35,928 nt of DNA from Rhodospirillales bacterium (lineage in GTDB: Bacteria > Pseudomonadota > Alphaproteobacteria > Reyranellales > Reyranellaceae): contig CANIRG010000009.1 in the NCBI GenBank assembly GCA_947469635.1, forward strand, positions 1-35,928, read 5' to 3'. Shown here piece by piece: positions 18,867-21,102 of the stretch. The notes beneath the pieces are model-generated. The model was not told the origin of the DNA, did not search any database, and worked only from the letters and a program-made list of their open reading frames with translations. Each line of letters begins with the position of its first letter. Position 1 is the first letter of the stretch. A program made the translations under genes and the position numbers.

Positions 18867-19829
18867 TCATTCCACCTTGGCGCCTGATTGCTTGATGAGA
18901 TCGGCCCAGATCGGCGTCTCGCGCGTCAGCACCGATGCGAGCTCGCCCGGCGTCGAGGCGATCGGCGTCTGGCCCTGCGCGACCAGCTTCTCGGCGACGG
19001 CAGGATCGGCCAGCACCGTCTTGATCTCGCGCTGCAGGCGGTCGACGATCTCCTTCGGTGTGCCAGCCGGTGCGTAGGCCGCCACGAACAGGCTGAGGTC
19101 GAAGCCCGGCACGAGCTGCTCGGCGAACGTGCCGAGGTCGGGCATCGAGGCCGAACGCTTGGCGCCGGCGGCGGCGAGCGCCCTCACGCGGCCAGCGGTG
19201 ATCTGGGCCTTGGCGCTGACGGGGCTGGCCCAGGTGAGGTCGAGCGTGCCGTTGGCCACGTCCTGCAGCGCCGGCACGTCGCCGCGATAGGGCACGTGGC
19301 TGTACATGCCTCCCAGCGACTTCTCGAACATCAGCCCGTAGAGATGGCCCGACGAGCCGATGCCCCAGCTGCCATAGGTTGCCGGCCGTCCCAGCCCCTT
19401 CACCCAGGCGGCCATGCCGCGCAGGTCGCCGAACGGGGCATCGGCCTTGACCGCGAGCAGGATGGTGCCGAGCGACACCAGTGACACCGGAATCAGGTCC
19501 TTCGCCGGATCGAACGGCAGCTTGTTGTAGAGGGTCGGGTTGTTGGTGTGGGTCGAGTTGGTGGTGATCAGGAAGGTCGAGCCGTCGGGCGCCGCCTTTG
19601 CGACGATATCGGAGCCGACGATGGTGTTGGCGCCGGGCTTGGGATCGACGAGCACCTGCTGGCCGAGGCGCGTCGACAGCCCATCGCCGATGACGCGCAC
19701 CAGGGCATCGATCGCGCCCCCCGGATTGAACGGCACGACGATGCGCACCGGCTTGGTCGGCCACGCATTCTCCGCCCGCGCCACGAACGGCGCAGCGAGC
19801 ATGGCGGCAAGCATTGCCCTTTTTGTCAT
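18867..19829 (-). CDS. Tripartite tricarboxylate transporter (Bug/TctC) periplasmic substrate-binding protein
   Basis: Signal peptide MTKRAMLAAMLAAPFVARA then ENAWPTKPVRIVVPFNPGGAIDALVRVIGDGLSTRLGQQVLVDPKPGANTIVGSDIVAKAAPDG. Start placed at ATG 19829, inside the repeat; the ORF track extends to 19853. Confidence 0.92.
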   Translation of the reverse strand: MTKRAMLAAMLAAPFVARAENAWPTKPVRIVVPFNPGGAIDALVRVIGDGLSTRLGQQVLVDPKPGANTIVGSDIVAKAAPDGSTFLITTNSTHTNNPTLYNKLPFDPAKDLIPVSLVSLGTILLAVKADAPFGDLRGMAAWVKGLGRPATYGSWGIGSSGHLYGLMFEKSLGGMYSHVPYRGDVPALQDVANGTLDLTWASPVSAKAQITAGRVRALAAAGAKRSASMPDLGTFAEQLVPGFDLSLFVAAYAPAGTPKEIVDRLQREIKTVLADPAVAEKLVAQGQTPIASTPGELASVLTRETPIWADLIKQSGAKVE

Positions 19830-19853
19830 CCTGAGCGTCGCGAAGGATCTCAT
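19824..19853 (-). repeat. Inverted-repeat copy A next to GIY-YIG gene
   Basis: TGTCATCCTGAGCGTCGCGAAGGATCTCAT; 26/30 identical to the reverse complement of copy B (20177-20206). Confidence 0.85.
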
Positions 19854-20152
19854 GGCGTCTCACCAATCTCAGGCATCAGGTCTTCCCACCTCGGATTGGC
19901 CGCACGCACCAACTCGTTCTTGCGAATGCGCTTCCAACCCTTGAGTTGCTTCTCTCGAGCGATGGCTTCTTCGATCTGCTCGAATTCTTCAGCGTAGCCG
20001 AGTCTCGTGATTTTGTATTTCTTCGCGAACCCGCTGCCTTTGCCGCTCCTGTGTTCGAAGATGCGACGACCGAGGTCGTTTGTAACACCAATATACATCG
20101 CGCTGAGCGAACTGCTCGTCATGATGGAGACCCAGTACCGGTGCTCTCTCAC
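19850..20152 (-). CDS. Small GIY-YIG nuclease family protein
   Basis: MYIGVTNDLGRRIFEHRSGKGSGFAKKYKITRLGYAEEFEQIEEAIAREKQLKGWKR...NPRWEDL. The first signature Tyr appears as Ser (YWVSIM). Confidence 0.88.
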   Translation of the reverse strand: MREHRYWVSIMTSSSLSAMYIGVTNDLGRRIFEHRSGKGSGFAKKYKITRLGYAEEFEQIEEAIAREKQLKGWKRIRKNELVRAANPRWEDLMPEIGETP

Positions 20153-20176
20153 GGAGCGTCACCGGCCACGGGGGCC

Positions 20177-20206
20177 ATGAGGTCCTTCGCTTCGCTCAGG
20201 ACGACA
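20177..20206 (+). repeat. Inverted-repeat copy B next to GIY-YIG gene
   Basis: ATGAGGTCCTTCGCTTCGCTCAGGACGACA; inverted relative to copy A (19824-19853). Confidence 0.85.
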
Positions 20207-20223: not shown

Positions 20224-21102
20224 TCATCTGGGACGCGAGCGGCCCGACACGGAGCAGAACACCAGGGAGACCGTCCCTGCCGCCTCGCGCACCTGGGTGC
20301 CGTGACGGCCATAGTCCTTGGGATCGATCGACGTGCCGCCGCGCGTCACGGTCGCCACGTCCTTGGGAAGGACGTCCTTTACGCGGGACATCGGCGTCGT
20401 CGTCAGCCGGGCGGAGCGCTCGGCGTAGAGGATGGTGACGCCCTGCACCGCGCCGGTGCGATCGACCTGCGGTCCGCCCGAGATGCCGCCCAGCGCACCG
20501 GAACCGGGCGGTGAGCGTTCCTGCTCGGCCCAGACCCATCCTTGTTCCACCGGCTTGCCCGGCTTTCCCTGGCGGATACGGGCCATGCCCACGAAGCGCG
20601 TATAGACTGAGGTTGGCTGCCCGTGCGGATAGCCGAAGTGGAAGCCCTCCTGGCCCATGACCGGCAGGCGCTCGGTGAGCTCGATCCTGGGCGGATCCTG
20701 CGGCGCGCCGGTGGTCGCGATGGCGACGTCCGCGACCGGATGCAGCGATTTGCCGGTGATCGGCCGCCATTCGTCGCGCACTCGGACATAGGACTTGGCG
20801 CAGGACTCGAGGACATGGGCGGCGGTGATCCAGGTGCCGGGAGCGACCAGGAACGCCGTGCCGATCGAATCCTCCGGCTTGCCCTCGTCGCCCTCCACGA
20901 GCATGTCGAAGCCGGGCTTGGTCGGCGTCTGGCCGGTGGGTGGCGCGGCCGGCACGGCGTTCGACCAGGCCTTGCTGTCGATCGGCGGCAGCGGCCGTCG
21001 CGGCGCCTCGTACTCGCCCTCGTCGCTGAACACCTCGTAGATCGCGTAGATCGACGCCACGATGACGATCCACATCACAAGCCGCCGGACGACGCTTCCC
21101 AT
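20224..21102 (-). CDS. Membrane-anchored trypsin-like serine protease
   Basis: N-terminal TM (VVRRLVMWIVIVASIYAIYEVF); triad contexts WITAAHVL, HPVADVAIA, GGISGGPQ. Confidence 0.88.
   Translation of the reverse strand: MGSVVRRLVMWIVIVASIYAIYEVFSDEGEYEAPRRPLPPIDSKAWSNAVPAAPPTGQTPTKPGFDMLVEGDEGKPEDSIGTAFLVAPGTWITAAHVLESCAKSYVRVRDEWRPITGKSLHPVADVAIATTGAPQDPPRIELTERLPVMGQEGFHFGYPHGQPTSVYTRFVGMARIRQGKPGKPVEQGWVWAEQERSPPGSGALGGISGGPQVDRTGAVQGVTILYAERSARLTTTPMSRVKDVLPKDVATVTRGGTSIDPKDYGRHGTQVREAAGTVSLVFCSVSGRSRPR

Follow-up and report, generated by a model that had tools for sequence, protein, structure and literature searches.

Genes and repeats at the locus

We analysed a window of 35,928 nucleotides from contig CANIRG010000009.1 of a Rhodospirillales bacterium of the Reyranellaceae (assembly GCA_947469635.1). 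In its middle part, a TctC/Bug-family receptor ORF and a trypsin-like peptidase ORF are separated by two inverted repeat arms with a single ORF between them (Table 1). This ORF matches the GIY-YIG domain of Pfam (PF01541, E 1.1e-12), and its stop codon overlaps the left arm. The initial annotation, made from the sequence alone, had described 30-bp inverted repeats around one ORF of ~100 amino acids; the coordinates and the identity of the arms (26 of 30 positions) were reproduced. When extended, the similarity reaches 36 nt at 86%, and the number of such matches expected by chance in the window is 0.00. The stems of the two arms differ by compensated changes and each arm folds as a short hairpin, consistent with the partly self-complementary, REP-like character that had been claimed for them. 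The low GC content that had been pointed out also holds: the GIY-YIG ORF has 54.5% GC compared to 68.7% for the Bug/TctC gene and 69.3% for the protease gene, and only 0.14% of the 303-bp stretches of the window have GC as low.

Table 1. Features of the repeat-enclosed GIY-YIG locus (window positions)
Feature	Position	Strand	Remarks
Whole unit REP - gene - REP	19824-20206	.	REP pair with the gene in its spacer
Type-A CGTC-class REP arm	19824-19853	+	TGTCATCCTGAGCGTCGCGAAGGATCTCAT; tag TGTC, stem ATCCT..AGGAT, tail CTCAT; points inward
Second type-A REP arm	20177-20206	-	reverse complement TGTCGTCCTGAGCGAAGCGAAGGACCTCAT; tag TGTC, stem GTCCT..AGGAC; points inward
Small GIY-YIG nuclease gene, clade A	19850-20152	-	100 aa, GTG start, GIY Tyr changed to Ser
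TctC/Bug-family receptor ORF	18867-19853	-	first residues MRSFATLR encoded by the REP arm
Trypsin-like peptidase ORF	20224-21102	-	stop codon ~18 nt from the right arm

The left arm also reaches into the neighbouring gene. Between 19829 and 19853 it encodes the first residues of the Bug-receptor ORF in its longest form and contributes an ATG (GGATGACA). Because orthologues of the receptor align only from residue 9-11 of this ORF, we predict that the gene likely starts at the ATG at 19829, supplied by the arm. The arm may have replaced the native start region. Orthologous sites without the unit, which the initial annotation had suggested looking for, exist: in two relatives (G018 and G194) the Bug and peptidase genes are adjacent with neither unit nor REP between them. 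The intergenic sequence is too diverged in both to map the junction at the window's own site.

The repeats are dispersed and fit the CGTC class of REPs

The source genome (6.3 Mb in 585 contigs, about 88% complete) contains 46 copies of the window repeat at ≤3 mismatches, and the reversed control gave no hit, so that the dispersed repeat that had been predicted is real and not rare. This lax count mixes two repeat types, A and B. Thirteen pairs of these copies lie within 150 bp of each other; all 13 are inverted, and 8 are oriented in the same way as the arms around the gene. Using type-specific patterns, we counted 24 copies of type A, 29 of type B, 14 of type C and 114 of type D, or ~180 in total. 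Types A and B carry the tag TGTC, type C carries CGTC and type D carries CCTC. Two other small GIY-YIG genes of this genome are likewise placed between arms, one of type D (CCTCATCCTGAGGAG...TCTCGAAGGATGGG) and one of type C (CGTCATCCCGACCGGAG...GGAGGGACCT). The fourth GIY-YIG match of the genome is a 643-aa open frame, the size of UvrC.

Di Nocera et al. 2013 (PMC3733652) divided REPs into the GTAG and CGTC superfamilies. CGTC REPs have CGTC, TGTC or CCTC tags, AT-leading stems, tails and inverted dimers; they include Neisseria dRS3 and Rickettsia RPE-4 and RPE-6, and occur in five phyla, mainly in Alphaproteobacteria (PMC3733652). Compared by sequence, the window arms fit this description. 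The terminal unpaired tag is found in all of types A to D, the palindromic stem with AT first, the short loop and the tail are present, and the arrangement in mostly inverted dimers is met by the 13 of 13 close pairs. Types C and D differ from the published families in their inner stems, which are longer and variable rather than 8-9 bp (PMC3733652). The other difference concerns the enzyme. CGTC REPs "apparently lack a dedicated transposase", and that study found no tyrosine transposase gene with CGTC repeats at its flanks (PMC3733652), whereas here a GIY-YIG gene is linked to them.

Small GIY-YIG genes are enclosed by inverted repeats

We surveyed the enclosure of homologous genes by local alignment of the 250 nt on each side, taking a score ≥32 as inverted repeats. 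In Reyranella, 65 of the 67 deduplicated subfamily genes are enclosed, against 4 of 114 neighbour genes in the same loci, which places the flanking of homologues by matching inverted repeats far above chance, the point that the initial annotation had proposed to test. The proportions are 15 of 19 in the rest of the class and 33 of 72 in other phyla. Over all loci, 7 of 483 neighbour genes and 30 of 3915 displaced windows score as enclosed. UvrC loci were left out of the controls because the sequence beside the domain is coding there. Among control GIY-YIG loci below 60 bits, mostly YhbQ-like, 1 of 13 is enclosed, and that one (L171) is a frameshifted clade-D gene. Three of the low-scoring, YhbQ-like genes (L156, L160 and L177) have upstream a GGAGAGGTGGCCGAGCGGTCGAAGGCG-like sequence that resembles a tRNA-Ser gene.

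The same pattern was obtained with the repeats themselves. Consensus REPs of known type point inward on both sides of 56 of the 67 Reyranella genes and of 1 of 114 neighbour genes; a REP on one side is more frequent near neighbours (upstream in 8 of 114, downstream in 16 of 114). A general tag motif was found on both sides of 57 of 66 genes in Reyranella, 4 of 19 in the rest of the class and 33 of 71 in other phyla, versus 0.1%, 0% and 1.2% of the respective displaced windows. The low figure for the class indicates that actual tags and stems vary more widely than the motif allows. We note that loci from other phyla were sampled by similarity search with the window protein, and that about half of the homologues outside Alphaproteobacteria have no enclosing repeat under the criteria used. 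The same small gene occupies the REP-spacer position in Alpha-, Beta- and Gammaproteobacteria, Clostridia, Fibrobacter and Bacteroidota. Judged by enclosure, the gene and its flanking repeats form one unit. Two genomes (G144 and G005) have 13 and 11 GIY-YIG matches, mostly small genes.

Protein clades match repeat types and repeat abundance

The Reyranella proteins form four clades that correspond to the four repeat types. On a maximum-likelihood tree of the 67 proteins, the seven arm labels require 8 changes, where the minimum is 6 and the mean after shuffling is 41.5 (0 of 200 shuffles were as low). Type D is a single clade with a support of 100/100. Since co-inheritance of arm and gene alone could produce this match, we counted the dispersed copies in 41 genomes. 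Median copy numbers with and without the gene of the corresponding clade are 59 and 16 for type A (p 2.1e-4), 68 and 21.5 for type B (p 4.3e-4), 53 and 1 for type C (p 1.6e-5), and 61.5 and 13 for type D (p 8.1e-4). In a rank regression the 4x4 matrix is diagonal, the sole off-diagonal value below 0.05 being that of the D repeat on the C gene (0.03), and none of 2000 joint permutations reached the observed match of clade and copy number.

By these counts, every clade of the protein goes with a repeat type of its own, and whether a genome has the gene predicts how many copies of that repeat it contains. The supposed tie between gene and dispersed repeats is borne out, given that clade, arm type and copy number go together. 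We note that the genomes come from related species and are not independent, that assemblies are incomplete, that the arms were in part used to define clade C, and that the flanking copies are included in the counts. The causal direction of the association is inferred. Some repeat-rich genomes have no gene that we could find (for type D, G033 with 336 copies and G015 with 91), and these need gene loss, incomplete assembly or action in trans.

Occupied, REP-only and empty sites

Type-D units were found at unrelated loci of one genome, three in G034 and two in G027, with likeness limited to the gene and the REPs. In most of the 17 type-D units inspected, similarity starts at the CCTC tag; some also share an outer palindromic stretch around GAATTGAATCGATTC. 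Outside the tag, a palindromic stretch (GAATTGAATCGATTCAA..ACTTA) is common to the type-D units L098, L105, L149, L155, L163 and L178. The shared palindrome is perhaps a target or an outer end.

Two sites could be followed across relatives. At the site where G029 and G035 hold a type-B unit (dimer, gene, dimer), G025 and G031 carry a REP dimer without the gene, G008 a half-REP, and G023 is empty. Where G025 and G031 have a type-D unit, there is a gene-less D pair in G027 and G034, a C pair in G008 and a B pair in G029. A single intergenic spot (L149, L254, L256, L257 and L259) is occupied by a D unit or by a pair of type D, C or B depending on the Reyranella genome, and is a hot spot for these repeats. 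The finding that would have told against the proposal, a gene kept in relatives with unrelated flanks, was not met; the orthologous sites are empty or hold the repeat pair only. As far as the alignments go, these are discrete units at unrelated loci with occupied, REP-only and empty orthologous sites, and gene-less REP pairs are the dispersed form of the unit. Of the features of an insertion sequence or MITE, inverted ends are present, and no target-site duplication was recognised at the one empty site that was aligned, that of the type-B unit. Of those expected of homing, REP-only and empty alleles exist; the direction of change and cleavage are not established. Degenerate copies with frameshifts or stops are common among the small GIY-YIG genes.

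Maintenance of the hairpins

The stem position beside the tag is paired in all 44 copies of type A (25 A-T and 19 G-C). The variable pair is matched in all 46 copies of type D (32 T-A and 14 C-G) and in all 49 copies of type C. Chimeras with swapped halves fold worse than real copies in type D (mean minimum free energy -21.6 versus -27.3 kcal/mol); the effect is small in type C (-16.4 versus -17.6 kcal/mol). In types B and C, an A-C mismatch is frequent at the outer stem position. From this covariation and folding, the REP hairpins are conserved by compensatory changes.

The enzyme and its relation to known systems

Conservation of the catalytic residues in the subfamily is almost complete (Y of GIY 98%, Y and G of YIG 100%, R 99%, H 99%, E 99%). 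The window copy has a serine in place of the GIY tyrosine, a residue that aligned clade-A relatives keep. Because this tyrosine is lost, the window copy is probably impaired, a putative recently inactivated example, and it may be inactive. It also has a V to G change in the LVY motif. An AlphaFold2 model of an intact clade-A homologue from R. massiliensis, 84% identical to the window protein (L005; pLDDT 92), has UPF0213 (1zg2) and SLX1 (6seh, 7cq3) as its nearest folds, and 1zg2 and 1ywl are the nearest solved structures by sequence. The Rfam search gave only a weak, off-target match below threshold, and the NCBIfam search gave nothing above the cut-off. As cargo of a phage, the gene is an unlikely candidate, with no homologue in phage records.

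The initial annotation had called the unit RAYT-like. This stands as an analogy only. The similarities to the REPtron (RAYT/TnpA-REP, GTAG REPs and REPINs) are one enzyme gene flanked by inverted, dispersed REP hairpins, many dispersed and often paired copies, a correspondence between enzyme lineage and REP type, and compensated stems. The differences are that PF01541 is the only domain found in the window protein, a hydrolytic GIY-YIG enzyme in place of the HUH/Y1 tyrosine enzyme (PF01797) of RAYT, that the tags are TGTC, CGTC or CCTC and not GTAG (TGTC flanks the window gene), and that a genome can carry a GIY-YIG unit at several of its loci, as G034 and G027 do for type D. The system is REPtron-like in its inferred working and not a REPtron by membership, as enzyme domain and tag both fail. 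With GIY-YIG homing endonucleases (I-TevI and the free-standing Seg enzymes) the units share the catalytic domain, a selfish-looking spread and the existence of occupied and empty sites; they differ in that the proteins, of about 90-100 aa, lack a DNA-binding extension, that there is no intron, and that REP hairpins form the boundaries. The UPF0213/YhbQ-type proteins and SLX1 are the closest in structure, but no REPs flank the low-scoring YhbQ-like genes of these genomes, and SLX1 is eukaryotic and needs SLX4.

Interpretation and alternatives

We consider it likely that the window unit is a copy of a widespread nuclease-repeat system, in which a GIY-YIG gene occupies the spacer of an inverted CGTC-class REP pair. 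The cutting of hairpins is inferred, without any biochemistry. SLX1 and similar GIY-YIG enzymes cut branched DNA. By analogy, the protein would recognise its own type of REP hairpin, either in extruded form or in single-stranded DNA at the replication fork, and would nick or cut at the base of this hairpin. DNA hydrolysis by GIY-YIG enzymes involves no covalent intermediate, and these enzymes cannot join strands themselves, for which reason host repair or replication would have to complete re-insertion and copying, unlike the strand transfer of RAYT/TnpA-REP.

The main rival, which is not excluded and which we regard as unlikely, is homing. The nuclease would cut gene-less REP pairs, and repair, with a gene-bearing copy as template and REP homology as guide, would place the gene in the spacer. 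The gene would then spread among REP pairs that already exist, without spreading the repeats. GIY-YIG is a classical homing-nuclease domain, and the gene-less dimer in G025 and G031 at the site where G029 and G035 hold dimer, gene and dimer is what homing would predict, as is the gene-less D pair of G027 and G034 at the type-D site. However, such REP-only alleles could equally arise by recombination between flanking dimers that deletes the gene, and homing alone leaves the link between gene presence and dispersed copy number unexplained. We find it considerably harder to accept that another, unidentified enzyme moves the repeats and that the gene is mere cargo in a REP pair. Gene-less pairs do far outnumber units and some repeat-rich genomes have no gene, but a passenger would not be expected to be the same small gene in the same place from Alphaproteobacteria to Clostridia and Bacteroidota, to match the type of both arms and their copy number by clade, or to conserve its catalytic residues.

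Mobilisation in trans by RAYT/Y1 transposases, as for GTAG REPs, would leave the GIY-YIG gene unrelated to mobility. RAYT-type genes do occur in 21 of the 41 genus genomes, yet a PF01797 search detected none in the source genome (88% complete) despite its ~180 copies of the four repeat types, and none of 30 RAYT loci has the tested CGTC repeats on both sides, to which the absence of CGTC-flanked tyrosine transposase genes in Di Nocera et al. 2013 (PMC3733652) adds. We therefore hold it to be very improbable. Some inverted repeat encloses 10 of these 30 RAYT-type loci (L304-L333). Least credible of all is that common intergenic hairpins, such as terminators or insulators, border a horizontally acquired gene by chance. 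The one-sided REPs near neighbour genes (8 and 16 of 114) make this conceivable, but enclosure by inward REPs on both sides (56 of 67 GIY-YIG genes versus 1 of 114) and the matching of repeat type to protein clade and copy number do not fit with it.

Homologues in other phyla and the wider CGTC superfamily

The gene probably encodes the enzyme that has long been missing from a large repeat family thought to have none. More broadly, we favour, with less assurance than for the window unit, the idea that CGTC REPs across phyla, dRS3 included, have small GIY-YIG nucleases as their dedicated mobilising enzymes and make up with them a second, independently evolved, non-HUH class of REPtron. CGTC repeats are one of two large REP superfamilies, and their means of spread has been open since 2013; now that each repeat type has a nuclease clade that matches it, the question can be tested directly. 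If the idea is correct, REP/REPIN systems have arisen two or more times around unrelated enzymes, and many genes labelled only "GIY-YIG nuclease family protein" would acquire a function. In the literature searched, which did not cover preprints or the majority of subscription journals, no paper connects GIY-YIG genes with REPs, RAYTs, dRS3 or palindromic repeats; an earlier report elsewhere is possible.

Further homologues came from records filed as plasmids. A Neisseria gonorrhoeae gene is enclosed by arms that contain dRS3 (score 106), and a gene of Azospirillum lipoferum 4B on AZO_p3 lies between sufB and sufC with the arms CGTCATCCCCGCG...CGGGGATCC (score 90). Genes of S. meliloti pSymB, N. 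aromaticivorans, Rhizobium, Neorhizobium, Shinella, Sphingobium and A. caviae are also enclosed, with scores of 46 to 167. In these plasmid-filed records, the inverted-repeat score did not show enclosure for the Photobacterium homologue and was marginal for Planktothrix and Spirosoma. Control windows in these loci score up to 57, with 5 of 120 at ≥32, and scores near 32 are weaker evidence there.

Some of these loci have further features. The gonococcal homologue (NZ_CP119142.1, 1880219-1883485) lies in a dRS3 array, and the PLSDB gene table lists no feature for it; the record, of 2.17 Mb, is filed as a plasmid and looks like a chromosome. The Azospirillum unit, with its REP, gene and REP, is situated inside the suf gene cluster. 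The homologue on Planktothrix agardhii p1 (L301) has an MmeI-type restriction enzyme gene on one side and a DISARM helicase gene on the other.
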